Source of the DNA: Podocnemis expansa
Taxonomy: Eukaryota; Chordata; Testudines; Podocnemididae
Assembly (NCBI GenBank): GCA_007922195.1
Contig: ML682001.1
Span: 750,084 to 814,083, forward strand
Reading direction: 5' to 3'
DNA: 64,000 nucleotides
The translations under genes were made by a program, and so were the position numbers. The first letter of the stretch is position 1; each line of letters starts with the position of its first letter. The notes under the pieces were generated by a model. It saw only the letters and a program-made list of their open reading frames with translations. It searched no databases and was not told the origin of the DNA. This document shows, piece by piece, positions 3,374 through 61,765 of this stretch.

Positions 3374-3379
3374 TTTATT
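3374..3379 (-). promoter_or_regulatory. Poly(A) signal AATAAA of TRPN1
   Basis: AATAAA on the minus strand (TTTATT on the plus strand), 105 bases beyond the stop codon. A T/G-rich stretch follows on the minus strand around 3330-3360, as expected for the downstream element. It implies a very short 3' UTR of roughly 125-140 bases. Confidence 0.75.
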
Positions 3380-6300
3380 GTATTCCATTTGGACATACAA
3401 GACGTCATCACTAACTCCCTACCGTGTTCAGGTAGCTTGGCGGGGACCCAAGCCCTGGCATCATCGTTGTTGGATGCAAACAGGCTAGACCTTGCAGATG
3501 TCCTGGCTGCTCACCAGCAGATGGACGGGTTGCATGACCGTCCTTTCCTCGGGGTGCATGGACAGCTCCCTCTCAAACTGTGCTTTGTCCATTCGCCCTT
3601 TCAAGGAGTAGTAGCGGAGAGCCACGCTGGGCCAGTCTATTGCCTCCTCAATGTGCAGAGGCCCAGCTGGGAGAGGGCTTCGAATGTGCCCACCTAAGGA
3701 TAGAACAAGAGATGGGTCATAGGGCAAGAGAAGAAAGTCACCTACCCATATCCCATGACCCTCTTCTTTGGTACCCCTGAAATTGGTGGAGATGGTTCAG
3801 TATAGGTATCAGACAGCATTGTCCTCTCCTGCATGAAATCAGACCAGCTCAAGTGTTTGCAATTTTATCACCTCCTGGTGGCTGGAGGACTGCAAAAGTC
3901 TAATCACACAATATTACCTTAAAAGGTAACAGGATTTCCCATTGTGTTCAGGTGGCAGAGGTTTGCTTTTGGAGCAAAAAATCTACAGTTCAGTCCCCTG
4001 ACTGTGTGAATTAGGTGGCAATTGTGGCGTTTATGGAACCTCACAAAATCAGGGTCTGAAATTATATCTTCTGATATTATTTGTAGCTCCTAAGATGATT
4101 GAGTTCTTAAATTTTTCATTTCTCTTAATTATGGAAAGAAACTTCTGTAAATCACTAAATTATCCAATAAAATGTTGCTTAGCGTTAACTGTAGGATATA
4201 TTCTATTATATATGTCACATTAATTTTCTGTAGTTAATGCAAGGATTGCCTCTGATTAAATGGGTTTGCTCACAGAAAAGATTCTGCCCTTGGATGTGAA
4301 CTTTAAGCTCCTATCGAGGAAGCAGAGTCTGTTAAGGGAGCAGAGCCTGGCCCTGTAACTACTGGACTTTCTCCACTCGTTTACGGGTTCAAATCCAGCC
4401 TATATCTTACTGAAAGCTGTCAGGGGCTATGCAAATGAAGTTGGTCTGAGTCCAATCTGATGAGGAAGTGGCAACAGCTCATAGGAAACAAATATGAATC
4501 AAGAATAAAAATGCCATTGCACATCCTCAGTGAAACATGCTCTTGCTGCAGAGCAGAATCCAATCTATCCCTTCAAGGCACAGCACCTCCTCTGTCTGTC
4601 TCTGCGATAGGATGGCCCTGCAGCCGAGAGGGGAGGCGCTATTCCTTGCTGAATCCGTTCTTGGTTGAGTGAGTAATGAGAGAGGCAGAAAGAAGAGATG
4701 GAAGCACCCTGTCTTCTATTCTTCTACAGCAAAGACAATGAAAAACGAGGAGATGTGCCCCCTCATTCCCCCAAAATTCATTCTGACTATGCCACAGAAT
4801 TCCATCTTGTTTGTCTGATCTCCCAGAGTCTAGGCTCCTCTCTTCAAATGCACAGGGTCGGCCTAACCTACTGAACAGAAACTTCCCTTCCAGCCGCCTC
4901 CAACAGCACCTCAAGTTACAAGCCAAGCCAGATAACAGCCGAGTGGGAGGAGAAATCTTTGCAGAGTCGTGCTAGTGAGATGTTGGGTTACACTGATGCA
5001 CAGTTTGTCCTCTCCAGACAAAACATAAACAGTGCTGGCCAAAGCCCCCTCCCTCCCGCTGCTTTGAAAACTGACTCCTAAGTGTCTGAACCAACAGCAC
5101 TGAAGCAAAAGACAGGCAGAGCAATGACTCAATCCTTAGTGTGCTCTAGTTGTGCCTAGATATGGTAGCATATGCAGAAGTTTGTTCTGCAGAGCACCTT
5201 CCATCCGCAATATTTCCCAAAATGGATAATACTCTTCGGAAGTGTGACAGCAAAGGGGGACAAAAATTCAGATGCGTAGATAAGGGAGGAAGGGAGACTC
5301 TTCCAGCTATGTGAACCAATAAGAGAATCATTGTGGTGGAGAGATACAGCAAGGCAACTGCAGGATATAGGAAGGCAAGAGCTGCCGAAGAAAAGGCTAT
5401 TTGCACCAAGGCTAATGACTCTGCACAGAAGAGAGACATATGGCAAGAGCCCACCCATGTAGTCTGACGCTCCGAACAGTACAGAGAAAAAAACCCAAGA
5501 GGTATATTAAGGATTGACTGGGCACCTTTCCTAGGGAAAGACTGAGGATCAAGGAGGGGGAAAAGACCCTTAGTGCATCGAGGTCATCACAGGGGCCAAT
5601 GGGAGGGTTGTTCCCTGCACTGCACCCTCCAGCAATGGGGACTTCTTTCCGTTCCAGTATCCAATAGCTCCCCTTCCAAGGACACTCCCACCCTAATACT
5701 CATCCTATGTTTTTCTTTGCTCAGTCTCAGAGGTGTACCCCACTGGGGCCCACCGTCTAATCTGGTCCTCTTCTGGAGGCTTATTGTGGATTTCCATCAG
5801 ATGACTCAGCAAAGGGTTAGTACCTTCTGGTGATACTTGTGTCATCCTCTTGGCAGTGACCCTAATCCAACCCATGGACGTATGAGCCAGCATGTTGATG
5901 GATCGCGTGTCGGAAGCGCTGTCCAAGTCTTCCTCTTCATTTATCAGGTCCTTCTGTTCAGTGGTGGACAGCTTACCTGGGAGGAGCACAGAAGCTCAGA
6001 GAAGTTGGGTTGTGCAAAATCATGATCTTGACCTCATCAGTGAGAACTTATCATCAGATTCTCCAACGCTCATACTATTATTCTTTTCTGGACACGATCA
6101 TGTCAGCCGGTGTGAGAGATACACATAGTTTGTACCAATAACCCATCCTGTCCTCACCCAGGAAATTAGTGACAGACAAACCTTTCACATTCAGTTAAGA
6201 GTCCCAAAACTTGGATGTTCATTTAAGGCAGGGTCTCAAACTCATAGCCCATGGGCAGCATGTGGCCCCTGAGGCCTGCAACACTGTTGTTATCAACATT

Positions 6301-9300: not shown

Positions 9301-12300
9301 AACATTTATATAGGAAAAGCCTATGTAGACGACTCCCTCCCCCACTGCAATTACATCATGTTTTCTGGAACGCTTCCAGTCTAATTGGTGACAATGGACT
9401 AAAAATGTGTAACCCCCACCCTTTATTTTAAACTATATTATAACTGATCTCTCTGGAGACGTAATATAGCAGCCTCAAGCCCTGTGAGGGCCCCATTCCC
9501 TTGTCTATCTGTGAAAAGGAATGGAGTCGTGCCTCTTTAAGAGAGCACACATCCGCCCCTCCCTGAAAGTGAAAGTTTCCATCAGACTTGGAGACACTGT
9601 TTTCTCATTTCTCTACCACCCATTTAGCCCCGCTGATGTCCAGGGCAGCGGCATCATTTCAGAAAATATGCAGGGCCAGAGGGCAAAGCTGTGTCAGCAT
9701 ATAGACCATTATAGGTGACAATATGGGTTGGTGAAGTGAAGTAGCTAGGCCTATTAATTTGGGAGGAGAGGTAAACCAACATCTGGGGGGCTACCTGCCC
9801 TTCTTGCCCCACATTAAATGATGCCCCCAGTTCAGGGGTTGCCTGGGTCTAACAGAGATCTACCTTCATTGGCAAGATATTTGTTGTTGGAGGTGATCAC
9901 TGCTCGTTCACCCAAAATCTCTATATTTCATCCTGCTGGACCATATTTTGGTACAAATGAGTGGAAAGTGTTTTCTTGCATTGTTTGTGTAGAACAATGG
10001 TATGAAGTTTCTATGCATCATATTAATGTGCATGATACTGACAGCTGGATCAGAAATACTGAGGTTCTGTGTTTTCCAGACTAGACATCTACTGTTGGTT
10101 CACATGGAGGGTATTTGGTCTGTAAAAGACTGGTTGGAAATTTTTCTAATGGAACATTTTCTTTTGGACAACACTGATTTGTCAAAAGTGAAAGATTTCA
10201 CCATAAATCTCTCAGTTTGGATGAAATTTTAGTTTTGGGAAAGAAAAAAAACATTTGGATTGTGCTAAAACATTCCATTTGATGGAACATTCATGGAACA
10301 TTTCTATTTTTTGGTTTGAAGTGACTTCTCATTTAGTAATGTATTTTATATGATACAAAACAAAAAGTGTTAAAAATGGAATGAAATGTTTTGATTCACC
10401 CAAAATGAATCAAAGTTTGTTTTCCAGGAAATTTTGAATTATTTTGTTTTTCTTCCATTTTGGAATGGAAAAGGCTTTTTTGCAAGCTCACAGACTTTCC
10501 TACATATTGAAAATCTGAGTTTCCACTCATCCCTAGTCTGTAAGGTAAGCAACAGAGATAACAGTGGGTTCATGTTCTACCTTCCACCCCAATATGGTTG
10601 TCTGGCTATAGGCGAAGGAAGAGTAACATGCCATGAGCCTGTTACTCATGCAGCACATACTGCCCCCTCTGTGATGACCCTAAATAAATCAAGGCACTGC
10701 CCTCTGATATGCTTTCACTTCTCAAAGTGTCCCTAAAACCTTTTACAGCCGCTGACATTCAATCATTTCATTTCATTTCTCCAATAGGCTTTGGGAACAA
10801 CACATCCAGGACTCTAGAGGAAAAATGTTCTGTGAAACAAATCTACATATAAATTAGCAGTTGTACCTCTGTGTTTGCAAAGTATTTTGATGTAATAGAG
10901 AAGATTTGTGAAGAGGTTAAAGGGGGAAGGTGTTCCAGACTTCCTAGTCATATCCCTGATGAGCATGGCCCTTCCAAACTTCCACTCTGTGTCAGATTGG
11001 GCCTGTATCCGCTGGTAGGTGTCACTCATCATGGCAATCAGCAGGTTGATCAGCACGATCAAGGTCACTACCAGGTAGACCCCAAACACAAAGCGGATGA
11101 TGACAAAGGTGAACTGAGGAGTTCTGGTGAGTGAGGGCAGGCACTCGGGGTCAACGAGTCCAAACAAGGAGAAGAATAATGTGACCATAATGACAACGGG
11201 GTCCTGGATAGAAGAGTTCACAGTTGCATTTGCAGAGGCAGCTGAGAGATTGGTCTTTGGTTCAGGGTAGACCGGCTGGTAGACAGAAGAGAGCTGCATG
11301 GTGAAGGCTATGTGAAACAAGCCTAGGATGACTGCGAACCTGGTGAGATCCTTCATGAGGTTCCTGATTATGACAGCCCAAGGGCCAAAAAGGTGGTGGA
11401 AGGTGAGGAACTCCAGGAACTGCACAAAGGAGAGTGTCATGGCCACCCCGAGGAAGATGTTCCTAGCAAACAGGCAGTGCAAGCGATCTGTGCCGGTGAA
11501 CATCAAGGCTAGCAAATGGCAAAGGAAAGCAATGGCAGAGAAGCCCAAGACGAATACTCTGATCCAAGCCAGGCCAGCCCTTTCTCCAGGATGGGTGAGC
11601 TCTGTGACCAGGGTCCCCAACAACCATGCTAAGAGCAGCCACTCGTTCCAGTATGGCATCATGTGACCTTCATAGATGGGGCTAATCGGAGGGTACACTA
11701 TGGTTAGGATGAACAGGATGAGCAGGAAGATATGCGATGCCAAGTGGCTCATGAACTTCATGATGGGAATTTTATTGAACCTATGTTTCAGGGGCAGGGA
11801 GAAAACCAGCCACATGGGAGGGCATGCTAGGAAGCAGAAGAACAAGAGGGCTATCTTCCATGGGGCCCACTTCAGGCTGCCATACCAGACTTCGGTTAGA
11901 TATTTTTGCACTGCTGGATGAGCTACTACGTCCTTCTGTTCACATTCAATTAATGAGTCCAGCATCGTGATGCCTCTGTGATCCACGGCACGGAGAAGGT
12001 AACCAGCGCTTCTCCCTCCAGAAGCCAGTGTCAGCAGCTCAGTGGCCATGCTCTCTGTGAACTTGGCGGCACTCAACAAGTCTTTGGCACGCTCCTTCTC
12101 CTTCAAGGCTGCCACGTGAAATGCTCGGGAAAGCTTGACTGCCGTGTCCAGGGGAGCGGAAGAGTGAAGGACGAATTCCTCAGTCACCTTGTTGTTGTTC
12201 AGTTTTCCACAGACCATGAGGTCAAAGATAAACTGGAAGAACAAACACTGTAATTAATAACAGGAAGAGGAAAGATGCTCTGGAGTTAAGGAATAGGACA

Positions 12301-51300: not shown

Positions 51301-54300
51301 GGGACCTGTCCATCTGCAACCAAAAAACCACAACATTTCCGAACAAGCAGCTGGAGCGGTGGGCATTTATATGCAAGCACAACATGAGCTCAGGAGGTAG
51401 ACAACCTGAGTGCAAGTCTAACTGAAACGTGCCCTTGGCTGAAACGGAACAACATCAACATCAGCGGCTTACCAAGAACCGCTCTGAAAGCTGGAACTTC
51501 CTCGAATTCTTGATCTCATGTCAGGTCACGATCTAGTGATACATAGCCACCAGCCTCTTGGTCAGCAGTGGCCAGGAAAAATTAATGGACACAAATGCTA
51601 AATGCACTGAGTAACCCCATCCGGGGTAGTCTGTGTCCACTTCTGGCAGGTCCTCGAGGTACCTTGCTTCTCTTACACTTTGTATACTGAGAGTAAGTTT
51701 GGGTGCAAAGCTGTAGAGGTTGGAAGGAAGCTGCCACAGCTGCTGTCTTTGGGGCATTTGCTCACTTGTTAGATCAATGGTTTTCAAACCACAGACTGGG
51801 ACCCAGTACTGGGTCATAAACCTTCTGGTGCCACTGTCAGAAGACTGGAATGCGTTGCTCAAAGATGTGTCAGCATAAGTGATTTTTTTCAACCAGGTCC
51901 CGAGGCAAAAGTTTGAAAACGATTAGATAACTTCAACCTCCCCAGGTGCCAACCTGTTTCCAGTATGACCACCTGCCTATACGTTTCTTTAAAAATCCAC
52001 AACGCCCAGCACTGCTAGAGCAAGTGACAGCCACATGAATGATCAACTTGTTCAGGAAATGGCTCATGCCCTTTTGTCTTCATTGAGTTGCACTAGTTAA
52101 CAGACAGGCTCTTACTGAAATTGGGAAAGGCTGTTATTCCAGCATGATGGTAATGGGACCTTGGAAGTCTTTCCTCCCTTATCTTAGGGCTGTTTCCTGC
52201 CTAGACAGGGGAAGGGAGGAGGAAGGCACTTTCTCCAGCTTCCTCAGCACTGTGAAGTTTAAGGAAAGGAGACAAGCTTTGAGCTTAGCCTGTGTACTTG
52301 CTGAAGCAGACGCAAGATTGAGAATGCCAAAAAAGTGAGTCAATGGTGCCCTGTATAGGAGTGGTATTGCATCTGCCAGTTTCAAAGGTCTATCACTCCA
52401 ATAGCTGCCCCAAAAGGACTCAAACAAGGCTCTTGGTCTTCTCTGTAAAGGGTTAATCTGCTCTCTAGAATTTTTACATAATAGTTTCTCCATCCTGGGA
52501 TGAGCCAATGTCAGTTTATTCTGCTGGTGTAATGCTGCACGTTGCATGGTCTATTGGTCAAAAGTATTGATCCACCCACTCGTCTATCACCATTTTCCTG
52601 TTCGGTACGGAAATGGAAGGTAAAAGGACTCTGGATCAGACAGTTCCCTCTCCCCACTCCCTTTACCTTGTCTGTTATGTTAGGGTTGGCCTTGCACTGA
52701 TGGAAGAACTTAAGCAGGCCTTCATCGCCTTCCCAAGCAGCTACATGTAGAGGAGTCTGACCTTCATCCTGAAACAAAGGGCATCAGAAGATGCTGGGTT
52801 ATCCTAGGGTTTAGCCCAAGCAGACAACCTACTGGGCGGGAGAACTTGGGTACCTGAGATGGCCACTTTCTGTAGCATGAAAGCATCATTCCTCCGCCCT
52901 GAAAGCTTCATCTCCTGCAGTGACACCACCAGATTACAAACTATCACCGAACCACGCTTGGAGGCAGTCAGGCCACAGCTTCCTGTAGCATTGGGGCTGC
53001 TACTGTCCAGGAAGCAGGGACTGTCCTAACCAAACCCAGATCAGTTTTCAGGGATGCAGCGCCCTTCTAGAAGAGGGTAGGTGACACTGACAGAGACCAG
53101 CTCCTATTAATTCCTTTATTGCATTGTGTAAAGAATCCATGCCCCTCTTCTGAGGACCACGTGGATCATAATGATGAACAGAACTTGGAGCCTTCTGCAT
53201 CAAAGGCCCAGTCCCCCCAACTCCATCTAAAGCAGAATATCTTTGGCTGTACATGTCCTAGAGTGTCCAGAATATACTTCTGTGGACCTCTCAACTCAGA
53301 TACATCACTCAGAAGTGACCTGTTTAAATACAGTTCAATGTGGTGGCAAGTCTTTGACCTGGATGGGTAAGTATGGGTCTTGTCTACCCTCCTTTTCTTT
53401 ATGGCTACATGAAAGGGAGTCCCTGAAATTATTCTGCTATGACCTGGGGTGCTGATATGGAAGAGGGGGAGAATCACCAAACCAGGTAATGGTTGTAAAA
53501 GTCACTAGCAACAGCTATTGGGGAAAATCCAGGACTGAGAATGGCCCCTCCAAAGAGAGACATGACCAGAGAAACAAAAAAGGAGTCTGGTGGCACTTTT
53601 AAAGACTAACACGCGTATGACCAGAGAAGACAATCAACGTGGGTTTCTCTACTGGTCATTTTAACCATTTCTTACTAATACTTCCATAAACATATGCTTG
53701 TGCATTGGAACCATTTTAAACCACCCTCCTCGCTCTGCCAAATACTGGAAGAAGAAGAAGGATTTGAACTTTAATGGCTTTTTGGTGTGTTTTGGCACAA
53801 AGCTGATAAGTGCTAGTGTGAAGCCTGCCCTGGTTCTGAAATACTACAGCCCTAGATTTATCTTGGCATTTTGTCTAATTCACTTAAAGGCCTTTTATAA
53901 ATAACTCAGGACCTTTCAGACTTACAGTTCTACAGAATTGCTTTGTTTATGTGAGGGTTTAAGTTGGTCTTGATGTTTTTAATAAAAATAAACTTCTTGT
54001 CAGAAGCCTCTCTCTTTTGGGATCTCTGAAAGGTCCTCATGAAGAGCTGTGCACCTCTTTGGAGCAGGCTTTTCTTATTACTTGCACCTTTGGGTTTATT
54101 TGAAGAAGAAGAAAAGGAAGAGAATGGACAATTTGGAGAAAGGTTAGTGGCTCTCAGCTGGTTCTATTCTACCCCCTCCCACAGAGACTGTCTCAGTCCC
54201 TGACTTTTGTGAACCAGACTAGAGCGACGGACCCCCTCATTTGCGCTCAGCGACTCTAAACCCTGCACCTAAACCTGCACCTGCAACAACCTTTTCAAAA

Positions 54301-57300: not shown

Positions 57301-60300
57301 GCTGATGGCCAGTGGGTAGAACGAGGGAACAGGGAGAGCGGCCAGAGGCAGGCGGACGGTATGAGTGACCACAGGCAGAGCTGGCGGACAGTGGGTGGAT
57401 TCAGCAGCTGGTGAGAGCAGAGTGTGAGTGATCAGTGGGTGGAGCCGGTGTACAGTGGGCAGAGCCCAGAGGACAGCGCTAGTGACCAGTGGTTGGCGCT
57501 GGCAGATAGCTGGGGTGAAGACACTCCCTACATACTGTGGAGTTTGTTGGGAGCCTGTTTTGCACTGATTCTCCAGATCAGTGCTGGGTTTGCTATTGAG
57601 TTTATGTGCTGTTATGCTGTATGGGATCATGTTGGGAACCTCTTCTGCACTGATTTTCCAGATCAGTGCTGATTTTTGTTATTTGGCCGTTTACACTCTG
57701 TTTTTACTAGTATTAAAAGTTTTTTATGCTACACTCAGACTCATGCTTGCAAATGGAGATGCATTACCTCTTTAGCGTGCCCAGGAGACAGTGCATGATT
57801 TCCCAAAAATCTGGGTGGGGGCTTGAGCCAGTTGGTGGTGTTACATTATTTGGAAACCCCTAAATATAGAACCTGGCTCTTGTTCTGCCATCTCACCATG
57901 GCAGAAGGGTTGTATTAGTTTTACATAAAATAATTCCCTCCTCACTGATTTTCTTGAAATTGTCCATGCACTGAAAAATGCGTCATCCTCACAGTTCTAA
58001 TTACAACCAAACTTAAGTTTGAAATTCAGATATTCAGATATTAAGCATAAAATTCATTTCCTGTGAGCATTCATGCTTGTAAAACCTAATCACTCCAGTG
58101 TCTGTGTAAAGCAAACAGGATGGGGTCACAAACAAAGAGCAGCAACATTTGTTTTTACAATTGATCAGCTATCAGGAGAATTTCCTAGCTGTCTGATCAT
58201 CTCTACTGATGACACAGGCTAAACCTGCAGTGCTCACATTCCCATTCTTGTGTATTTTATACTCACATTCTGGCAATCCACCACAGCCCCGTACTCCACT
58301 AGGATTTTGGCAATTTCCACATCTCTTTTCCTACAGCTTGCATGCAGCACAGTGTCACCATGTCTCTGTAATGGGCAAGCAATGTTTTGCCTATTAATTA
58401 CACACACACACACCCCACACACAGCGCAGATGCTCCTGTTTTCACTTTAGAGAATTACTTGGTATCTGATGCAGAATACTGAAGGGTTAACTTGTTCTGA
58501 ACATTCAAATGGCACACTTTCCACTCACACAGCTCTATCAAGGCATCCCATGCCTAGTTTGTTGCACCTTTGCAGCCAGCTATTTCCTGTCTTCCCCCAC
58601 TGCCCTGCCTAACTGCGAGTCATCTGCTATTCTTCCTCCATCTCCCCCATCGCTTTCCCCATGCTCCAAAGGGGTAGCTATGTAAGTCTAGTTCAGTAAA
58701 ACAAGCAAGCAGCCTTGTGGCACTTAAAGGCTAACAAATTTATTTATTGTGTAGGTGATTGTGGCACCCGACCTGGCTGGAGGGTGCCTCCTGCTGGTGA
58801 TACTAGGGAGTTAGCCTCATTGTGTCCTCCTCCAGGCAATCGGTGCTTCGCCTCCTACCTGCAGGACTCTGCGCTGAGTCCTTGTCTGGTTTTAGCTCTC
58901 TGGCCAAGCCTATCAGTCCTCCCCTTCTGGGGTGTCTGGGAACAAAGGAGTCCATAGCCCCAGCCCCAGGTGGCACAGGCAAATACAAAGTCAGTAGTTC
59001 TGGCCTCCAAGTGGGGTTGGCAAATACAAAGTCAGGAGCCCCAGCCACCAGGCAGGGCAAGTGGATGCTACAGTTCACTGCCCAGCCCTCAGGTGGGGTC
59101 AGGCATGCACCAGATGGGCAAAAGCACTGCTTGAACCCCTCAGCAGCCCTGGCATGGGGTTCAAGCACTCCAGGTGGTTGGGAAAGGAAAGGGATGAGGA
59201 GGAGGATGCAGGTCTATCCATCTCCACTGTGTCCCAGCCCAGGGCCCTACCAGTGACCGAGGGGTCAGTCACTGAGTCAGCGGGGCTCCTGCCACAATGC
59301 ACTGACACAGATCTGCTCTTCTGGCAGCTGCACGGCCGTCCCCTTCCCTTGGGCTACTTCCTCCCAACTTGGGCCCAGATTAATGGCTCAATAGGGGGTA
59401 GAAGCCGTCGGCATTTTCCAGGTAGATCGCCCATGGGATCCTGGCGAAACCCTCTGCGTCCTTTGGCAGCAGGTCCGGGAATTCCTCTAGCCTGTTGGCA
59501 GAGGGCAGCTCCTCCAGGTCACAGGGGCCTTCTGCTGCTGGCGGCTCTTCCTCGACCGAAGGGAGATCCTGCAGGTCGCAGGGCTGGTAGGGGTGTCTGT
59601 CCTCAGCCTCTCCCAGCTCCAGGTCAGCCCCAGAAAGGAGCAACTGGTGATGGCCCCAGCGGACCTTGGGGCACCTCCCCAGTTTGCAGCCTCCAAGTCA
59701 CTGGGTGCAGGCAAGCTAGGTAGGTTGTCAGTCCCTCTTGTTGGAGAGGACGGGGTGCCCCAATTGACAGGGGCCCAGCCTCATCCAGCTCGCCACCTCC
59801 AAGGAGGCATGTCCTTCCCTGGTGGCAGCTCAGCCCCTACTGAGCTACCAGGCTGGGCTTTTATACTTCCTGGTCCTGTCTTGGCTCCACCCCTCTGCCT
59901 CCAGGGTCAGGGCCCTGCAGTTCCTAGGTCTGGCCAGAAGGGGTGTTCAGGCCGTTCCTCGAACCCAGGATCTGAGAAGGGCCACAGCTCCCTGCTACAT
60001 ATTAGATGAACTTTTGTGGGAGAAAGTCCTACTTTATCAGACGCTTCATGACGTGGGATTTTTCTCCCACGAAAGCTCATGCAATAAATAAATTCGTTAG
60101 TCTTTAAGTGCCACAGGAGTCCTTGTTTGTTTCCCTCTACCCACGTATCTCAGCCCCAGACTTCAATTCCAGGCCTGGGTACTCTGACATGAAAGCAGCT
60201 ACAGATGCTGCTAACTTGGGTTACTTTTCCACACCGTTTCCTTTCTGTTTTTCACTGCATTATTAACCCTTCTATTTTACTATCTGGCAAACACCAGTGT

Positions 60301-61146
60301 AAGGGGCCCGAAATGAACACAAGCTATTTTTCTGTTTACTCTCAGCAGTCCTAGGAACAGGGCTAGTTTGTTAACAGAGTCTTGAGAACCAGCAGAGGGT
60401 GTCCAAGAGCAAGAAACCAACATGCACCAGCTCTACGGATGGGTTTAATCTCTCTGGGGCCAGCTGGTGTAAATCAGCATAGCTCTACTGATGTCAGTGG
60501 GCCACCAGGGGAGGATCTGATCCTAAGTGCGAAACCTGGTGGGTGTCATCTGTGGAATGAGTTGGTAGTTCTCAGGCCAGCTCTCTGACAGAATTTGATC
60601 TCTCCAGCCCCTAGTGATTCAGCAGCAAGGAAGGAAAAAAGCTGTAAAACTACCTGGCAGTAAAACTACCAGGTTGTGGAGCCGATGGTGATCTAAAGAT
60701 GTCCCATACCTTTTCCCGTGCTCTCAGCTGGGCCTCAGCATGTGCAGAAAGCAGTTCCTTGCAGACTCCCAAATTCCCAGCTTCCACTGCAAGGAAGAGA
60801 GGTGTGCAGCCATCCTGCAAATGGGACACAAGAAAACCAAAACCTTGGAGGGGTTTGTAACACCACCCCTTTCAATGCAGTGCCCCTGTGGAGAGCACAA
60901 GCCTTGAGTATGGAGCTGGTGGCACAATTCAGCCCCACAGCCCATGGTATTCACTTCGTACCACTCCTCGCCTCCAAGCTGGGCCTGTGTCAGAAAAATT
61001 CCCATCTCATGTGGGGAAAGGCCCCCACTCACCTTGTCTTGGCTCAGTCTCGCATCTCTGTGAGAAGCTTTCAGCAGGATCTGCATCACACCGACTGCCC
61101 CGACAGTGCGGAGGGCTGCGTAGTGAAGAGGCAACTGGTCCTTTGG
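3374..61146 (-). CDS. TRPN1: TRPN1 (NOMPC-type) mechanosensitive TRP channel gene, 25 exons, 5' end outside window
   Basis: The span covers 25 coding exons plus the 3' UTR. TRPN/NOMPC channels are tetrameric, non-selective cation channels of sensory cells; a long N-terminal ankyrin spring tethers the channel to microtubules and converts displacement into gating. The joined exons here give 1530 residues: 27 ankyrin repeats (1-955), pre-membrane linker, S1-S6 with pore and TRP helix (956-1410), and a C-terminal tail (1411-1530). Repeat order, exon-specific loops and the channel core align one to one with fly NOMPC repeats 3-29 (comparison from memory). All introns are GT-AG; 22 are phase 0 and the last two phase 1. 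No frameshift or internal stop is seen. The two first repeats and the N-terminus, roughly 200 residues, are missing because the window ends. TRPA1 and generic ankyrin proteins were considered; the repeat count, the DTYQRIQAQSD motif and the linker fit TRPN best. Confidence 0.95.
3485..3693 (-). CDS. TRPN1: TRPN1 last coding exon and stop codon
   Basis: 209 bp, completing codon 1462 and coding 1463-1530, then stop TAG at 3487-3485. Acceptor ATCCTTAG in phase 1. The product begins GGHIRSPLPAGPLHIEEAID and continues with WPSVALRYYSLKGRMDKAQF and EREL, a probable amphipathic helix, ending QDICKV. The match of phase with the previous exon, the clean stop and the poly(A) signal 105 bases after it support this as the gene's end. 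Orthology of this tail needs a transcript or a related species to confirm. Confidence 0.85.
3694..5823 (-). other. TRPN1 last intron
   Basis: 2.1 kb, phase 1. AT-rich from about 3900 to 4260; the rest is unique-looking sequence. I see no further exon or clear transposon. Confidence 0.7.
5824..5976 (-). CDS. TRPN1: TRPN1 penultimate exon, cytosolic C-terminal tail
   Basis: 153 bp, phase 1 at both ends, completing codon 1411 and coding 1412-1461. Acceptor CCTCCCAG, donor GTACTA at 5823-5818. Translation is hydrophilic and acidic at first (KDLINEEEDLDSASDTRS), then SINMLAHTSMGWIRVTAKRM. Support is the match of phase on both sides, the open frame and the non-repetitive composition. An alternative donor 18 bases upstream (CAA/GTATCA) would be phase 0 and would break the frame with the last exon. 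I recall no clear fly counterpart for this tail. Confidence 0.82.
6229..6400. mobile_element. hAT-type MITE, 172 bp
   Basis: Begins CAGGGTCTCAAACTC and ends GTTTGAGACCCCCTG, an inverted terminal repeat. It is flanked on both sides by the identical 8-bp duplication ATTTAAGG (6221-6228 and 6401-6408), which is the hAT signature. Non-autonomous. Confidence 0.88.
6501..6725 (+). repeat. Dispersed sauropsid repeat (TCATAGA...AGAAGGGACC family)
   Basis: The stretch with AGATCAGAAGGGACCATTA, GTCTAGTCTCATGCCCTG and GAGTTATTAAATTCCTCAAA resembles a repeat I know from turtle genomes. Related copies lie at 50868-50985 and 63420-63665. Class (CR1-related or SINE) is not settled from sequence alone. Confidence 0.6.
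6780..7560. repeat. AT-rich dispersed repeat with (GAAA)n
   Basis: AT-rich tract with repeated AAAATTTTCAT and TTTTGG-type words and inverted arms. It contains a GAAA microsatellite at 7397-7417. Similar tracts occur at 10190-10520, 12950-13250, 45630-45860, 54520-54800 and 56380-56600. Confidence 0.5.
7397..7417. repeat. (GAAA)n microsatellite
   Basis: Five consecutive GAAA units on the plus strand, uninterrupted. Confidence 0.95.
10190..10520. repeat. AT-rich dispersed repeat
   Basis: Holds repeated GGAACATT and AAATTTT words in both orientations, related to the tract at 6780-7560. It lies about 350 bases beyond the donor of the channel exon. No coding content. Confidence 0.5.
10867..12232 (-). 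CDS. TRPN1: TRPN1 exon: linker, S1-S6 channel core and TRP helix in one 1366-bp exon
   Basis: 455 codons plus one base, residues 956-1410. Acceptor TCTTCCAG at 12240-12233 (phase 0 start); donor GTACAA at 10866-10861 (phase 1 end). Order within the exon product: linker with FDLMV and PLDTAVKLS (1-45), coiled or helical TRP-like linker KEKERAKDLLSAAK (45-60), pre-S1 hydrophobic stretch (125-148), S1 near 160-182, S2 195-213, S3 223-247, S4 258-279, S5 297-316, pore helix and filter near 346-362, S6 376-403, then the TRP helix with DTYQRIQAQSDTEWKFG (404-420) and LIRDM. The motif FHHLFGPWAVII before S5 is a TRPN signature. The S5-pore loop carries three N-glycosylation sequons. Without splicing, the frame would run on for 17 further codons to a stop; the phase-matched next exon makes splicing more likely. 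Confidence 0.97.
10949..11023 (-). other. TRPN1: TRP helix after S6
   Basis: Encodes the DTYQRIQAQSDTEWKFG run followed by RAMLIRDM. This run differs at only one residue from fly NOMPC up to the phenylalanine-glycine (my recollection of the fly protein). The TRP helix lies along the membrane and couples the ankyrin spring and linker to the gate. Confidence 0.9.
11144..11185 (-). other. TRPN1: TRPN1 pore helix and selectivity filter
   Basis: Encodes VTLFFSLFGLVDPE. The FGLVDPE segment sits where fly NOMPC has FGQTTTE. The filter glycine is kept, while the residues behind it are more TRPC-like (LFG). Aspartate and glutamate just outside it would give a negatively charged pore entrance. Confidence 0.85.
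11210..11251 (-). other. TRPN1: Three N-glycosylation sequons in the S5-pore loop
   Basis: The loop contains NLS, NAT and NSS within 14 residues. By topology it faces outside the cell, so glycosylation is plausible. Sequons are seen directly; use is inferred. Confidence 0.7.
12290..12720 (+). mobile_element. tRNA-type SINE fragments
   Basis: Phrases such as TTCAATTCCCAGCCCTGCCA, then CTTCTGTAAAATGGGAACAA and a later AGCACCTGGCATGATGG follow the order seen in tRNA-derived SINEs of turtles. A MIR-like piece with GGTGAAACTGAGGCAGAGA follows at 12610-12700. Boundaries are approximate. Confidence 0.5.
12950..13250. repeat. AT-rich dispersed repeat ending in a C run
   Basis: Repeats of AAAATGTTTCATTT-type words in both orientations, with a run of 14 C residues at 13239-13252. 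Same family as 6780-7560. Confidence 0.5.
13270..13770 (-). mobile_element. CR1-like LINE fragment, endonuclease region
   Basis: On the minus strand the translation contains MGDLNYP and later FLEQLALEPTRGKTVLELVL, the pattern of the endonuclease domain of CR1-type non-LTR elements (GDFN and EPTRG motifs). The flanking part to 13770 resembles other dispersed LINE sequence. It is a short, degraded and non-functional fragment. Confidence 0.65.
14506..14712 (-). CDS. TRPN1: TRPN1 exon, ankyrin repeats 28 and 29 (end of spring)
   Basis: 207 bp, 69 codons, residues 887-955. Acceptor TTCCACAG, donor GTAAAG at 14505-14500, phase 0. First core GWSPLHFAAKSGFLACVRLL then VESGATPNLES; second GRTPIQHAAAENHQEVVSFL, ending LKLIEDRK. 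The ending corresponds to fly LMEDKR, where the ankyrin domain hands over to the linker. In the NOMPC structure this junction contacts the TRP helix. Confidence 0.97.
14713..15113 (-). other. Short TRPN1 intron
   Basis: 401 bp, phase 0. No repeat or other feature recognised. Confidence 0.8.
15114..15311 (-). CDS. TRPN1: TRPN1 exon, ankyrin repeats 26 and 27
   Basis: 198 bp, 66 codons, residues 821-886. Acceptor CTTAG at 15316-15312 with a weak pyrimidine tract; donor GTAGAG at 15113-15108; phase 0. First core STPLHLAAQHGHTAVVGLLL then SKSTSQLHLRDKRGRTCLHL; second AAANGHVEMVRALLGQGAEI then NVTDK. Fly has RNGRTGLHIAAMHGHIQMVE and GQGAEINATDR. Confidence 0.97.
15312..16376 (-). other. TRPN1 intron
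   Basis: 1.07 kb, phase 0. Includes a pyrimidine-rich tract on the plus strand near 16005-16140. No transposon recognised. Confidence 0.75.
16377..16484 (-). CDS. TRPN1: TRPN1 exon, ankyrin repeat 25
   Basis: 108 bp, 36 codons, residues 785-820. Acceptor TATTGCAG, donor GTAAGA at 16376-16371, phase 0. Core FTPLHLAAQSGHENLVRLLL then NYPGVQVDGQT; the fly repeat has MTPLHLAAFSGNENVVRLLL and NSAGVQVDAAT, an unmistakable match. Confidence 0.97.
16485..18134 (-). other. TRPN1 intron
   Basis: 1.65 kb, phase 0. A tRNA-like phrase GCCCGGTGGCTAAGGCACTG near 17212 may be the head of a degraded tRNA-derived SINE. Otherwise nothing recognised. Confidence 0.7.
18135..18281 (-). CDS. TRPN1: TRPN1 exon, ankyrin repeat 24 with long C-terminal loop
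   Basis: 147 bp, 49 codons, residues 736-784; 16 residues longer than a canonical repeat. Acceptor TTTCCAAG, donor GTAACA at 18134-18129, phase 0. Core FTALHVAAHSGQLDFVRDML is followed by a Pro/Ser/Lys-rich loop (SEPPKFPSAGQRVKEQGSE). Fly NOMPC carries a comparable loop after its repeat 24, so the break in the ankyrin spring is conserved in place though not in sequence. Confidence 0.94.
18282..19240 (-). other. TRPN1 intron with SINE-like tract
   Basis: 0.96 kb, phase 0. At about 18838-19000 the phrases GGGCCTCAATTTGCTATCTG and TAAAATGGAGATGGTAACG resemble the body of a tRNA-derived SINE. Confidence 0.65.
19241..19339 (-). CDS. TRPN1: TRPN1 exon, ankyrin repeat 23
   Basis: 99 bp, 33 codons, residues 703-735. 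Acceptor CATTAG at 19343-19340, donor GTGAGT at 19240-19235, phase 0. Core MTAIHLAAKHGHINVLEVLK then GSVSLRITSTK; the fly repeat has FTAVHLAAQNGHGQVLDVLK and STNSLRINSKK. Confidence 0.96.
19340..20108 (-). other. TRPN1 intron
   Basis: 0.77 kb, phase 0. No repeat or exon recognised. Confidence 0.75.
20109..20210 (-). CDS. TRPN1: TRPN1 exon, ankyrin repeat 22
   Basis: 102 bp, 34 codons, residues 669-702. Acceptor TGTTGCAG, donor GTAAGT at 20108-20103 chosen to keep phase 0 (a second GT two bases upstream would break the frame). Core NSTPLHLAAAGGHGEVVKVL then LQSGASAADEDG; fly has ATPLQLAAEGGHADVVKALV and RAGASCTEEN. Confidence 0.95.
20211..23114 (-). other. TRPN1 intron
   Basis: 2.9 kb, phase 0. 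Contains the long-palindrome MITE at 22011-22224. The remainder has no recognisable feature. Confidence 0.7.
22011..22224. mobile_element. Long-palindrome MITE (GTCCTGTGGCACTTAA family)
   Basis: Two long inverted arms: the left has AGTCCTGTGGCACTTAA and AGCTTTTGTGGGAGAAAATC, the right has their reverse complements GATTTTCTCCCGCGAAAGCT and TTAAGTGCCACAGGACTCC. It ends in GACGGCTACCCCT. Other copies are at 38152-38386, 46367-46544 and, split, at 58671-60131. Non-coding. Confidence 0.8.
23115..23321 (-). CDS. TRPN1: TRPN1 exon, ankyrin repeats 20 and 21
   Basis: 207 bp, 69 codons, residues 600-668. Acceptor CTCCCCAG, donor GTGAGT at 23114-23109, phase 0. First core GQTPLHLAAENDHSEVVKFF then LKHKPELV; second GSTCAHIAASQGSVAVIKEL then KFNKVGVTTARNK. 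Fly shows GNTCAHIAAMQGSVKVIEEL and FDRSGVISARNK. It is among the best conserved repeats in the gene. Confidence 0.98.
23322..28442 (-). other. TRPN1 intron
   Basis: 5.1 kb, phase 0. Carries a hAT-type element (24658-25235), a T run at 26510-26519, a MIR-like phrase near 27495-27560 (GACTTGCCCAAAGTCACAAA) and a fragment at 27840-27900 related to the GTGGCAC MITE family. The rest is unassigned. Confidence 0.7.
24658..25235. mobile_element. hAT-like non-autonomous element
   Basis: Starts GGGTGACCAGAC and ends GGTCTCCCTAGC, an imperfect inverted repeat. It is flanked by the 8-bp duplication CAGGCTGA (24650-24657 and 25236-25243). The inside is GC-rich and C-rich with many overlapping spurious frames and no transposase. 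Confidence 0.65.
28443..28541 (-). CDS. TRPN1: TRPN1 exon, ankyrin repeat 19
   Basis: 99 bp, 33 codons, residues 567-599. Acceptor TTGGGCAG, donor GTAAGG at 28442-28437, phase 0. Core RTPLHLAALNGQLDVCTSLL then NLSVDVNATD; the fly repeat has QTPLHLAAASGQMEVCQLLL and ELGANIDATD. This exon stands alone between a 3.9-kb and a 5.1-kb intron. Confidence 0.96.
29108..29585. mobile_element. hAT-type non-autonomous element, copy 1
   Basis: 478 bp, starting CAGAGGTTCCTGG and ending GCAAACCACTG, flanked by CACTAGAC and CACTAGAT (7 of 8 bases). A related element lies at 47590-48018; both share ATCATTTTTACAACCCTGAA and GAGCTRCGGGCCACTTTGAA. Confidence 0.75.
31468..31823. mobile_element. hAT-type MITE with CTATGTTCCCTCTAA ends
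   Basis: 356 bp. Terminal inverted repeats CTATGTTCCCTCTAA and TTAGAGGGAACATTG, flanked by exact 8-bp duplications CTCCATCC (31460-31467 and 31824-31831). AT-rich inside, with no coding capacity. Confidence 0.88.
31985..32010. repeat. (GGGGT)n microsatellite
   Basis: About four GGGGT units in a GC-rich block that runs from 31830 to 32180. Confidence 0.85.
32453..32653 (-). CDS. TRPN1: TRPN1 exon, ankyrin repeats 17 and 18
   Basis: 201 bp, 67 codons, residues 500-566; two repeats in one exon. Acceptor TTGGCAG, donor GTAAGG at 32452-32447, phase 0. First core AALHLAAENGHDQIADILLW, then HKAFVNAKTKLGLTPLHLSA and NGYNHLVKLLVETHQASIDA. Fly NOMPC has NKAFINSKSRVGRTALHLAA and HNAVIDILTL at the same sites. 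Confidence 0.97.
32883..33300 (+). mobile_element. tRNA-derived SINE, interrupted
   Basis: Head part 32896-32990 has GGCCCAGTGGTTAGGGCACT and GTGTGACCTCGGGCAAGTTG; the tail resumes at about 33170 with CTCTGTGCCTCAGTTCCCCA. A 170-base piece starting near 32992 (GGATATGTCCACAAAGG) interrupts it and resembles a fragment of the GTCTACAC-ended MITE family. Confidence 0.6.
34330..34560 (+). mobile_element. Ty3/gypsy-type integrase remnant, 5' part
   Basis: On the plus strand a degraded frame shows the C-terminal integrase pattern of vertebrate Ty3/gypsy elements (LLAY then AATGYNPGQLLMG). Frameshifts and an A run at 34495-34502 break it. The CR1 insertion beginning near 34560 interrupts it, and the matching downstream part resumes after 36250. 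Confidence 0.7.
34560..36254 (+). mobile_element. CR1 LINE, 5'-truncated, with internal insertions
   Basis: Nucleotide signature of the 3' end of CR1 ORF2 and its 3' UTR: FNVFINDLEKG-type coding near 34705-34740, CTTGAATACTGAGTGCATTT near 35690, GACTAATCGTCC-type tail on the other strand near 36200, and the degenerate 3' octamer TTCTATGATTGTATG. Many stops and frameshifts make it inactive. It is interrupted by a GC-rich insert around 35037-35288 and by the hAT MITE at 35371-35674. Confidence 0.82.
35371..35674. mobile_element. hAT-type MITE inside the CR1
   Basis: 304 bp, starting CAGGGCCGGCTCT and ending GAGCTGGCCCTG. Exact 8-bp target-site duplication TATATAAA at 35363-35370 and 35675-35682. 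Removing it restores continuous CR1 sequence, so it inserted after the CR1. Confidence 0.92.
36255..36700 (+). mobile_element. Ty3/gypsy-type remnant, 3' part
   Basis: Continues the interrupted integrase C-terminal region (LEPGD, then IKLDGEKG-type residues), with the frame broken. A purine-rich tract at 36675-36690 is a candidate polypurine tract, so LTR remnant may start just after it, but I could not define an LTR boundary. Confidence 0.62.
37158..37256 (-). CDS. TRPN1: TRPN1 exon, ankyrin repeat 16
   Basis: 99 bp, 33 codons, residues 467-499. Acceptor CTCTAG at 37260-37257, donor GTAGGG at 37157-37152, phase 0. Core GWSPLLVAADQGHTEIVKIL and tail HHARVDVFDE; the fly repeat has GWTPLLIACHRGHMELVNNL and ANHARVDVFDT. 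It is flanked on the 5' side by a 2.9-kb and on the 3' side by a 4.5-kb intron. Confidence 0.96.
38152..38386. mobile_element. Long-palindrome MITE (GTGGCACTTAA family), copy 2
   Basis: Inverted arms AGCTTTCATGGGAGAAAATC and GATTTTCTCCCATGAAAGTT, with the outer words AATCCTGTGCACTGAAAGAC and TTAAATGCCACAGAACTCC. It ends in TTTGGCTACCCCT. Same family as 22011-22224. Confidence 0.78.
38429..38760. mobile_element. Palindrome-rich MITE with TTAAGTTGACTT core, copy 2
   Basis: 332 bp. Ends GGCTGTGTCGACACTAGAG and CTCCAGTGTAGACATAGCC are inverted repeats. Inside are repeated GTTGACTT/AAGTCGAC words in both orientations, as in 1501-1909. It lies only 42 bases from the preceding MITE. Confidence 0.75.
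39407..39583. mobile_element. MITE related to the GTGGCAC family
   Basis: Has GGTAGCCGTGTTAGTCTGTG at one end, ACAGATTTCTTTGGTCATAA and its approximate inverse TTATGCCCGAAGAAATCTGT inside, and TACCACAGGACTCTTG at the other end. A diverged subfamily of the 22011-22224 element. Confidence 0.7.
40198..40314 (-). CDS. TRPN1: TRPN1 exon, ankyrin repeat 15
   Basis: 117 bp, 39 codons, residues 428-466. Acceptor GTTGCAG, donor GTATTT at 40197-40192, phase 0. Core HETPLHYCARVGNADVLLEM then LKHMSTSQMQQSINKQ; the fly repeat has ETAFHYCAVAGNNDVLMEM and ISHMNPTDIQKAMNRQ. The HYCA core replaces the usual HLAA in both. Confidence 0.95.
40315..41036 (-). other. TRPN1 intron
   Basis: 0.72 kb, phase 0. No repeat recognised. 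Confidence 0.75.
41037..41165 (-). CDS. TRPN1: TRPN1 exon, long ankyrin repeat 14
   Basis: 129 bp, 43 codons, residues 385-427. Acceptor TTTGCAG, donor GTACGT at 41036-41031, phase 0. Core GETPLHLAAAMKKDKVHFEE with an acidic insertion between the helices, then TKIIAMLLEYNADV. Fly shows the same inter-helix extension (KEEVKIPESDKQIVRMLL), so it is conserved rather than a mis-called intron. Confidence 0.94.
41166..42223 (-). other. TRPN1 intron
   Basis: 1.06 kb, phase 0. No repeat or further exon recognised. Confidence 0.75.
42224..42352 (-). CDS. TRPN1: TRPN1 exon, long ankyrin repeat 13
   Basis: 129 bp, 43 codons, residues 342-384; about ten residues longer than a canonical repeat. Acceptor ACTGGCAG, donor GTGACA at 42223-42218, phase 0. 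Core GECPLHIAVRHCHLPVVESI, then an extended charged loop (LAMEKSHTEAVTCVNQENE). Fly NOMPC has a similar extension at this repeat (ETVKEKHGPDKATTYINSVN), so the insertion is ancestral. Confidence 0.94.
42353..44158 (-). other. TRPN1 intron with local duplication
   Basis: 1.8 kb, phase 0. Contains a direct repeat pair (42919-42972 and 43055-43108). Nothing else recognised. Confidence 0.75.
42919..43108 (+). repeat. Direct repeat pair, about 54 bp each, 136 bp apart
   Basis: TAGCTAGTGAAATGACCACA and the following words ATCACAGGAGAGTAAAGTTG recur as CAGCTAGTGAAATGACCACA and ATCACTGGAGAGTACAGTTG. Only a few mismatches separate the two. Looks like a local segmental duplication of about 136 bp that has since diverged in the middle. 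Confidence 0.8.
44159..44257 (-). CDS. TRPN1: TRPN1 exon, ankyrin repeat 12
   Basis: 99 bp, 33 codons, residues 309-341. Acceptor GGCTGCAG, donor GTAGGTGA at 44158-44151, phase 0. Core DGETAMHIAARHGSLSMIKA then LIEEGGELTWQSK, matching fly TPVHVAARHGNLATLMQLL with EDEGDPLYKS. Repeats 11 and 12 lie within 300 bp of genomic DNA. Confidence 0.95.
44348..44449 (-). CDS. TRPN1: TRPN1 exon, ankyrin repeat 11
   Basis: 102 bp, 34 codons, residues 275-308. Acceptor CTGTCAG, donor GTGATG at 44347-44342, phase 0. Core ETPLHIAARISEGEKVAEML then LKSGADVN; the fly repeat has ETPLHIAARVKDGDRCALML and LKSGASPN. The inserted residue between the two helices (ISEGEK) is shared. The intron after this exon is only 90 bp, the shortest in the gene. 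Confidence 0.95.
45630..45860. repeat. AT-rich dispersed repeat
   Basis: Words such as TTTGAAATGAAACTTTACAA and AAATTTGGAAAGATAAAG relate it to the tracts at 6780-7560 and 54520-54800. Confidence 0.45.
45902..46340 (+). mobile_element. Possible solo LTR (TGTGACAAAGTTCC type)
   Basis: 439 bp starting TGTGACAAAGTTCCTCTGCT and ending TCCTGTCACA, with TG...CA ends and a short inverted terminus (TGTGACA/TGTCACA). The opening phrase and GGTGGGTCCT match an LTR family I recall from turtle genomes. No clear target duplication and no internal coding region. Confidence 0.5.
46367..46544. mobile_element. Long-palindrome MITE, copy 3, with 8-bp TSD
   Basis: Same family as 22011-22224 (GAGTCCTGTGGCACTTAAA and its inverse). 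Flanked by identical TGACCCAA at 46359-46366 and 46545-46552, which indicates an 8-bp target duplication and therefore hAT-like mobilisation for this family. Confidence 0.82.
47590..48018. mobile_element. hAT-type non-autonomous element, copy 2
   Basis: 429 bp, starting CAGTGGCTCCCCAGC and ending GGAAAACACTG; flanked by ATTTACAT and ATTTGCAT (7 of 8). Shares internal sequence with 29108-29585. Confidence 0.78.
48557..48757 (-). CDS. TRPN1: TRPN1 exon, ankyrin repeats 9 and 10
   Basis: 201 bp, 67 codons, residues 208-274; two fused repeats in one exon. Acceptor CTTTCAG, donor GTAGGG at 48556-48551, phase 0. First repeat core CLHIAAKMGHAAVVKALLQR, second NYTALHIAAQHCKPLVVQTL then LGFGAQV and GGK. 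Fly NOMPC shows NYTALHIAVESAKPAVVETL and GFGADV at the same position. Confidence 0.97.
48758..50342 (-). other. TRPN1 intron
   Basis: 1.6 kb, phase 0. A MIR-like phrase (ACAGATGGGGAAACTGAGGC) lies near 49620. AT-rich around 49800-50000. Nothing else recognised. Confidence 0.7.
50343..50441 (-). CDS. TRPN1: TRPN1 exon, ankyrin repeat 8
   Basis: 99 bp, 33 codons, residues 175-207. Acceptor CCTGAAG, donor GTAACC at 50342-50337, phase 0. The repeat DGSTFVHVASEYGHADTALA ends in LLHMPNK; the tail YLHMPNK is identical in character in fly NOMPC at the same repeat and is a good orthology marker, because most ankyrin repeats end in a NAxD-type loop. Confidence 0.96.
50442..51211 (-). other. TRPN1 intron
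   Basis: 0.77 kb, phase 0. Contains the dispersed repeat fragment at 50868-50985. Confidence 0.75.
50868..50985 (+). repeat. Dispersed sauropsid repeat, copy 2
   Basis: TGATAGACTCTAAGGTCAGA, CTCCTGCACAATGCAGGCCA and TGAGTTATTAAAGCCCTCAA show it to be a truncated copy of the family at 6501-6725. Confidence 0.65.
51212..51313 (-). CDS. TRPN1: TRPN1 exon, ankyrin repeat 7
   Basis: 102 bp, 34 codons, residues 141-174. Acceptor GTTGCAG, donor GTGATT at 51211-51206, phase 0. Core DRSPLHIAAERGHTSIVELL followed by TEKF and ending ARTK, matching the fly repeat with the unusual tail DKFKAS and ERTK. The donor GTGATT is weaker than its neighbours. Confidence 0.95.
51314..52666 (-). other. TRPN1 intron
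   Basis: 1.35 kb, phase 0. Contains a small element at 51775-51924 with inverted ends. The rest is unassigned. Confidence 0.7.
51775..51924. mobile_element. Small hAT-like element
   Basis: About 150 bp with inverted termini CAATGGTTTTCAAAC and GTTTGAAAACGATT. The target-site duplication is not clean, so the boundaries are approximate. Confidence 0.55.
52667..52768 (-). CDS. TRPN1: TRPN1 exon, ankyrin repeat 6
   Basis: 102 bp, 34 codons, residues 107-140. Acceptor GTTTCAG, donor GTAAAG at 52666-52661, phase 0. The repeat reads DEGQTPLHVAAWEGDEGLLK at its start, nearly the same as fly GQTPLHIAAAEGDEALLK. It is separated from the upstream exon by a 5.5-kb intron, the longest in the window. Confidence 0.96.
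53562..53627 (+). repeat. 44-bp insertion flanked by 11-bp direct repeats
   Basis: ATGACCAGAGA occurs at 53562-53572 and 53617-53627. The 44 bases between them resemble one outer arm of the GTGGCACTTAA MITE family (GTCTGGTGGCACTTTTAAAG), preceded by an A run. Confidence 0.75.
54520..54800. repeat. AT-rich dispersed repeat
   Basis: AAATGTTTCATTTTGACATT and related words in both orientations; same family as 12950-13250. Confidence 0.5.
56380..56600. repeat. AT-rich dispersed repeat
   Basis: AAAAATGAAACTTTTCCATT followed by inverted-type words. Same family as the other AT-rich tracts. Confidence 0.45.
57150..57530 (+). repeat. GC-rich degenerate minisatellite
   Basis: Repeated words GAGTGACCAGCGGGCAGAG, GTGACCAGTGGGAGGAG, GTGACCACAGGCAGAG and GTGATCAGTGGGTGGAG at irregular spacing of 50-100 bases, alternating with GCGGACGGT or AGCAGCTGGT. 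Immediately after it, GCACTGATTYTCCAGATCAG occurs twice (57560-57590, 57645-57670). Confidence 0.65.
58267..58365 (-). CDS. TRPN1: TRPN1 exon, ankyrin repeat 5
   Basis: 99 bp, 33 codons, residues 74-106; exactly one canonical repeat. Acceptor TTACAG, donor GTGAGT at 58266-58261, phase 0 at both ends. Core GDTVLHASCRKRDVEIAKIL matches the fly repeat GDTALHLAARRRDVDMVRIL. A CA-rich microsatellite lies about 35 bases upstream of the acceptor (58400-58424). Confidence 0.95.
58400..58424. repeat. (CA)n microsatellite
   Basis: Alternating CA units with one CCCC interruption, in the intron just upstream of the repeat-5 exon. Confidence 0.9.
58671..60131. mobile_element. Long-palindrome MITE, copy 4, split by an insertion
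   Basis: Left arm 58671-58758 (GGGGTAGCTATGTAAGTCTA, then CCTTGTGGCACTTAAAGGCT); right arm 60003-60131 (TTCTCCCACGAAAGCTCATG, then TTAAGTGCCACAGGAGTCC). The two halves fit the uninterrupted copy at 22011-22224. Confidence 0.78.
58759..60002. mobile_element. 1.24-kb GC-rich insertion, unclassified
   Basis: Splits the MITE around it. Flanks show an imperfect duplication, TAGGTGA (58752-58758) and TAGATGA (60003-60009). It begins near TGTGGCACCCGACC and ends near CCTGCTACAT, so an LTR with TG...CA ends is possible. Open frames of 220 and 144 codons on the plus strand are of proline- and arginine-rich composition typical of GC-rich non-coding DNA; I recognise no protein in it. Confidence 0.5.
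60710..60814 (-). CDS. TRPN1: TRPN1 exon, ankyrin repeat 4
   Basis: 105 bp, 35 codons, residues 39-73. Acceptor TTTGCAG, donor GTATGG at 60709-60704. Both ends are phase 0. The repeat opens DGCTPLFLAVEAGN and has the helix CKELLSAH; fly NOMPC has PLLLAVESGN and CRELLAA at the same place, which fixes the register. Confidence 0.93.
61033..61146 (-). CDS. TRPN1: TRPN1 exon, ankyrin repeat 3 (NOMPC numbering)
   Basis: 114 bp, 38 codons, residues 1-38 of the visible protein. Acceptor is a pyrimidine run plus GCAG at 61150-61147; donor is GTGAGT at 61032-61027. The exon starts and ends in phase 0. It encodes a divergent repeat with the core LPLHYAAL and helix IVQ-like VGVMQILLKAS, matching fly NOMPC at its repeat with TAVHLVSS. 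It is the most upstream exon I can identify; repeats 1 and 2 must lie beyond 64000. Confidence 0.88.
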
Positions 61147-61765
61147 CTGCAAGGGGGAAAGAAGGCAAGGGGCAGATTTAGATTAACACCCTCAGGGGAC
61201 AGAGACTGTGGATTTCTCTTTTAATCTCTTACACTCCCTGCAAAGCACCATGTGCCCTTCCAGTGCCTCAGAAATAACAATGATTCTGGTGCTGAAAGGG
61301 TACGGGCTGAGGGGCAGCTTTCTCGCTGGAGGACAGAGCTGCCCCTCCATGGGGATGGCATGGTAATTCCAGTCTGCCTTGGGTGCAGCAAAGTTAGGTC
61401 TCCGAGCGGGAGACCGCACCTGGGAATGAGTCAGTAGGGTAACAGCGACCAGTCAGGCCTTCTCCCAGTGAGTTGCTCGGGTTTTCTTGTAGGGGGCTTT
61501 GGATGCATAGTGACCGTTGTAAGGACTGTCCGTCCAATTGTGAGCCTAGCACCGCATTAGGCTCTGAAGGGAGGACAGTGCTAGATAGGGAGAGACAACT
61601 TCTCCATGCCTAGCAAGCATCCCACTGCTCTGGCTTGCATGGGTTGTTTGTCATGACCATACCAAGCCCTGGGCAGTGAGCTCGGGGCCTTGTAGTGAAG
61701 GGCAGCTGAACCTAGGAAAAAGAGTTTGTCTCCAACAGCACCTCTGGATCTCAAAGGGCTTAAGT

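Follow-up and report, generated by a model that had tools for sequence, protein, structure and literature searches.

TRPN1 has classically been described from fish and amphibians (PMC2882365), with a family plan of 28-29 N-terminal ankyrin repeats (PMC2882365, PMC4494053). The repeats of Drosophila NOMPC are described as a microtubule-bound spring (work cited in PMC8828769), and TRPN1 has been placed in the kinocilium in Xenopus and in hair cells in zebrafish (work cited in PMC2882365). For amniotes the published record is in conflict. A 2014 paper (PMC4282873) lists, in its Fig. 6 legend, recognizable homologs of nompC for three turtles (Chrysemys, Chelonia and Pelodiscus) and for two alligators. 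It gives none for Anolis, reports no ortholog from mammals or birds, and puts forward prestin as the replacement for NompC. Against it, a 2015 paper (PMC4494053) describes TRP-N as occurring once in all Bilateria except amniotes, with a single loss at the amniote root, and a 2022 paper (PMC9774356) gives TRPN only for worms, flies and zebrafish and none for eight saurian genomes. In the tuatara, TRP-like sequences are reported for each of the seven subfamilies, TRPN being unnamed in the main text (PMC7116210). Here we analysed a stretch of 64,000 nucleotides from the turtle Podocnemis expansa (contig ML682001.1, positions 750,084 to 814,083), referred to as the window. We read it, with a probability of roughly 85%, as holding 25 exons of a turtle TRPN1/NOMPC gene whose predicted product is a cation channel gated by force.

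Identity of the gene as TRPN1/NOMPC

The exons run along the minus strand from 61146 down to 3485. They were located by visual reading and by comparison with turtle proteins and then set base by base, and an independent rebuild gave 25 exons and 24 introns of 90 to 5498 bases, with GT at 24/24 donors and AG at 25/25 acceptors. Exons 1-23 start in phase 0 and exons 24 and 25 in phase 1, and the joined coding sequence of 4593 bases makes 1530 codons plus TAG with no internal stop. The spliced frame is open through ankyrin repeats 3-29, a linker, six transmembrane helices, the pore and the TRP helix to the stop, past which the first AATAAA poly(A) signal stands at 3374-3379 (minus strand). An earlier reading of the same DNA made from its letters, the sequence-only reading, had listed these exons, introns, frame, stop and poly(A) signal, and all were reproduced to the base.

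The predicted protein is collinear with Drosophila NOMPC (PDB 5vkq) at 1547 bits, with the best stretch covering residues 3-1496, and a score of this size against a solved NOMPC excludes a chance match. The pore domain alone scores 421 bits to 5vkq versus 102 to the runner-up TRPC4, and 5vkq also ranks first, at 44% identity, in a fold comparison of a model of the pore exon. That exon, exon 23 (10867-12232, minus strand), encodes the linker, helices S1-S6, the pore and the TRP helix in a single piece of 1366 bases and carries 12/12 residues of the Group-I TRP fingerprint, W F H G F F Y N L I A W (PMC9242649). An exon-wise reading finds 27 ankyrin repeats in exons 1-22, numbered 3-29 by comparison with the turtle protein P0001, and when all six frames were scanned with a generic consensus of the ankyrin repeat, the 20 best matches all fell on the minus strand. 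The ankyrin array of the family plan, the linker, S1-S6 and the TRP helix are thus shared with Drosophila NOMPC, which differs in having Q at the fingerprint site where the window protein has N1351, and D1435 in the S4-S5 linker region where the window protein has N1246. By these comparisons the gene is TRPN1/NOMPC; the collinear match, the fingerprint and the tree position given below bear out the earlier identification, including its complete pore and TRP helix.

A mechanism can be proposed by analogy with fly NOMPC and with Xenopus and zebrafish TRPN1. The NOMPC channel is a tetramer, and four TRPN1 subunits would assemble into a channel whose 29-repeat ankyrin helices would tether it to microtubules of a cilium or kinocilium. 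A pull on the ankyrin spring would shift the linker and the TRP helix, and the pore would then open and let cations into hair cells or into other cells that bear cilia.

A protein search returned 955 matches among 7991 scored candidates, of which the best 120 are considered here. Turtles occupy rows P0001-P0017, with 10 genera and several isoforms, and the tuatara (P0018) and the alligator (P0031) have one row each; the remaining rows, as far as named, belong to amphibians, fish, lampreys and invertebrates. Some row labels were shortened, and we take them to stand for Gopherus, Dermochelys, Ambystoma and 'Haliotis-like'. TRPN1 is the name NCBI gives to the alligator row, and it appears on 0/17 turtle rows: eight are labelled serine/threonine-protein phosphatase 6 (PP6) regulatory ankyrin repeat subunit, seven are uncharacterized, one is unnamed and one is called a tyrosine phosphatase. 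The eight PP6 labels would fit a different ankyrin-rich protein, an ankyrin or a PP6 regulatory subunit, joined by accident to a TRP exon. We give this explanation next to no credence, as a single collinear NOMPC match runs from repeat 3 through the TRP helix, and repeats followed by a pore occur in 9/9 aligned amniote orthologs, three models of which are without some repeats (Pelodiscus 7-336, Dermochelys 174-273 and Caretta 428-466, in window numbering). The PP6 names were assigned automatically, probably on the strength of the ankyrin part. Because database labels hide the gene, surveys by name will go on overlooking turtle TRPN1. The Chrysemys row P0002, a TRPN1 isoform, is named protein tyrosine phosphatase type IVA 3 by NCBI, a name which suggests that PTP4A3 adjoins TRPN1 in Chrysemys and that two models were merged.

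Amniote relatives and a proposed history of loss

Identity to the window protein is 92.6% of 1496 residues in Emydura, a side-necked turtle of the family Chelidae, 91.3% of 1530 in Chrysemys, 88.1% of 1195 in Pelodiscus, 83.9% of 1483 in Sphenodon and 82.7% of 1504 in Alligator; it is 79.3% in Ambystoma, 76% in X. tropicalis and 63.7% in Danio. In the main tree of 20 rows, with support given as ultrafast bootstrap (UFBoot) and SH-like approximate likelihood-ratio test (SH-aLRT), the window gene groups with Emydura at 98/99, the turtles together at 100/99, turtles with Alligator at 81/79, and alligator and tuatara fall with the turtles in one amniote clade at 100/100. A quick tree that includes Danio recovers the same clades. 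The gene is nested within turtles and amniotes, and on the tree it therefore reached this turtle by vertical descent. By the same grouping the source is a turtle and likely a side-necked one, in line with the turtle or related sauropsid that the sequence-only reading had proposed. TRPN1 being classically a gene of fish and amphibians (PMC2882365), misassigned or contaminating DNA from such an animal, with no bearing on amniotes, had to be weighed. Identity is 93% to Emydura, 79% to Ambystoma and 64% to Danio, which speaks against it, and the nesting inside turtles refutes it, leaving it a negligible probability.

The turtle proteins compared (Emydura P0001, Chrysemys P0002 and Chelydra P0015) have the same architecture as the window protein, and rows P0001-P0016 are 95-96% identical to it across the 455-residue pore exon. 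Chrysemys and Chelydra align over the entire window protein without gap or insertion, and Emydura shows one single-residue gap and is missing the last 33 residues. In the Caretta and Dermochelys models, 20 residues are inserted after window residue 784, near the exon 19/20 junction, perhaps by an alternative acceptor; neither the window nor the rows of Emydura, Chrysemys and Chelydra have this insertion. The alligator and tuatara proteins are amniote orthologs that share N1246 and T1165 with the window protein. They differ from it in their longer end branches (0.17 and 0.14, respectively, against 0.05), and the alligator model is missing residues 1284-1288 and has further small gaps close to the C terminus. 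The Xenopus and zebrafish genes are orthologous vertebrate genes and differ in the kind of evidence behind them, as they have localisation or loss-of-function data (PMC2882365) and the turtle gene is known here from sequence.

The orthologs in turtles, tuatara and alligator, together with the tree, contradict the single loss at the amniote root (PMC4494053). Survival past the amniote split, as claimed by the sequence-only reading, accordingly stands on the fully supported amniote clade, but not as a novelty: TRPN1 in turtles and alligators was already in print in 2014 (PMC4282873), and the window gene is a newly read turtle TRPN1 within a known family. As to the other amniotes, the full-length candidates among the best 120 of 955 include no bird, mammal or squamate name, some names being shortened. 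Row P0028 ('Pse...', a possible snake by name) is nearest to frog rows, at 83.7% to P0035, and three unnamed rows have 84, 68 and 64% identity. Among candidates of 250-796 residues (best 120 of 308, many unnamed) a frog row alone reaches 80% and the others stay at or below 69%. Remnants in bird, mammal and squamate lineages were thus looked for within the best 120 rows of each set, and no search was aimed at remnants made of ankyrin repeats alone. As TRPN1 occurs in turtles, tuatara and alligator and is absent from mammals, birds and squamates in the literature and in the listed rows, we infer that the amniote ancestor had it and that mammals, squamates and birds each lost it independently, three being the fewest losses. 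The fuller history that we favour, though with a good deal of reserve, would replace a single root loss with more than 250 million years of unbroken selection in turtles, tuatara and crocodilians, at least three losses (mammals, squamates, birds), an amniote-wide change from D to N near the S4-S5 linker, and a working NOMPC-type mechanosensor in living turtles and crocodiles. A well-resolved turtle gene in one clade with its tuatara and alligator orthologs settles the presence side of the conflict between PMC4494053 and PMC9774356 on one hand and PMC4282873 on the other, and opens the prestin replacement idea to testing in living reptiles. If the fuller history is true, the loss of TRPN1 elsewhere becomes comparable with the rise of prestin-based hearing.

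The D to N change concerns residue 1246, eight residues beyond the S4-S5 linker glycine of PMC9242649. N is found there in 10/10 aligned amniote rows, and D in 33/33 sampled non-amniotes as well as in NOMPC. In a motif scan of 240 rows, 36 of which had no motif match at this site, N also turned up in three arthropods, namely a cricket (P0196), a termite (P0200) and a springtail (P0222), and in one unnamed row (P0199). N is, in these sequences, tolerated at the site outside amniotes, and N1246 is a possible amniote mark among vertebrates. T1165 was considered in the same way, as it differed from 33/33 non-amniote rows in a first comparison and NOMPC has F there; it was dropped as an amniote mark when the scan (no motif match in 153 rows at this site) found T in three Scleropages and three other non-amniote rows.

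Selection on the window gene

Selection was judged by a protein-level site-class test in place of a DNA-based ratio of nonsynonymous to synonymous substitution (dN/dS). Sites were classed by conservation across 33 non-amniote TRPN proteins, and the count was limited to sites without disagreement among the other turtles. The window's private changes fell on 4/363 invariant, 3/332 high, 16/450 middling and 19/129 variable sites (p 6.7e-14). Neutral mutation of the same coding sequence gave an even spread, about 3% per class at d = 0.015, and the smallest p in 300 neutral draws was 0.00044 at d = 0.015 and 0.0055 at d = 0.02. Seven other turtles tested singly showed an uneven spread in 6/7 cases (p under 0.05, nominal; Dermochelys p 0.17), with small counts in irregular order, such as 1/111 variable sites in Chrysemys and 0/422 middling sites in Caretta. 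Since the private changes shun conserved sites, the gene was by this test under selection until recently. Over the longer term, a neutral simulation at the turtle fourfold-site rate of 0.0014 per site per million years (Myr) (PMC7116210) and assumed split times of 100, 150 and 200 Myr yields an expected identity of 37-58% with 14-27 stops in each lineage, as compared with the observed 92.6% and no stop.

The alternative to be weighed here is a recently dead TRPN1 pseudogene, with open exons and with its function or its 5' end lost a short time ago. Two observations would suit it: the 5' end is beyond the window, and at the small divergence of the terminal branch about 7-12% of neutral draws are free of stops by chance, so that the open frame alone is not decisive. 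Neutral draws do not reproduce the tracking of site conservation by the private changes, however, every splice site and the poly(A) signal are kept, and Chrysemys and Chelydra are gap-free over the whole protein. We therefore regard a recent pseudogene as unlikely, though less remote than the two explanations weighed above. That the gene looks functional, as stated earlier, agrees with the open frame, the kept splice sites and the constraint test. Its description as intact holds only for the part within the window, the 5' end lying outside. The first exon of the model opens at a splice acceptor and aligns from residue 119 of P0001, and the best match in a search of 61147-64000 for an upstream orthologous exon had 32% identity (E 0.004), compared with 85% and 92% to P0001 for the nearest two true exons; no such exon was found there. 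The start codon, about 118 N-terminal residues and ankyrin repeats 1-2 therefore lie, as judged by this alignment, beyond the window.

Several points weigh against reading the locus as a gene for a working force-gated channel. A defect may lie in the N-terminal part of about 118 residues or in the promoter, both beyond the window. The constraint test leaves room for functional loss during about the last 9 Myr, a bound obtained from the upper 95% limit of 2.8% for 4/363 invariant sites, over 0.31% per Myr, with the turtle fourfold-site rate of PMC7116210. Four private changes at sites invariant elsewhere set the window apart from the other turtles; three of them (L179F, P189A and F195L) are in ankyrin repeat 8 (50343-50441), and this repeat may have loosened. 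Gating need not match that of the fly channel, because N1246 replaces D in the ten aligned amniote rows, and the channel itself is known here from its sequence alone. At some of the changed repeat 8 sites, tuatara and alligator also vary.

Exon coordinates and minor features

All exons are on the minus strand. Exon 1 of the model (61033-61146, 85% to P0001) encodes ankyrin repeat 3, and the next five encode one repeat each: repeat 4 in exon 2 (60710-60814), repeat 5 in exon 3 (58267-58365), repeat 6 in exon 4 (52667-52768), repeat 7 in exon 5 (51212-51313) and repeat 8 in exon 6 (50343-50441). Repeats 9-10 share exon 7 (48557-48757). Single repeats follow in exon 8 (repeat 11, 44348-44449), exon 9 (repeat 12, 44159-44257), exon 10 (repeat 13, 42224-42352), exon 11 (repeat 14, 41037-41165), exon 12 (repeat 15, 40198-40314) and exon 13 (repeat 16, 37158-37256). 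Exon 14 (32453-32653) holds repeats 17-18, exon 15 (28443-28541) repeat 19, exon 16 (23115-23321) repeats 20-21, exon 17 (20109-20210) repeat 22 and exon 18 (19241-19339) repeat 23. Repeat 24 and a linker are encoded by exon 19 (18135-18281), repeat 25 by exon 20 (16377-16484), repeats 26-27 by exon 21 (15114-15311) and repeats 28-29 by exon 22 (14506-14712). Downstream of the pore exon, exon 24 (5824-5976) encodes the C-terminal tail, and exon 25 (3485-3693) the C-terminal end and the TAG stop.

Intron 8 (44258-44347, minus strand) has 90 bases, is in frame and free of stops, and would add 30 residues if retained; no extra residues stand at this position in the proteins of Chrysemys, Emydura and Chelydra. 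Rfam and tRNA scans of the whole window gave no match, nor did Pfam on three non-exonic reading frames. One of these frames, at 13211-13564 on the minus strand, encodes 118 residues which we take to resemble the endonuclease part of a CR1-type long interspersed nuclear element (LINE).
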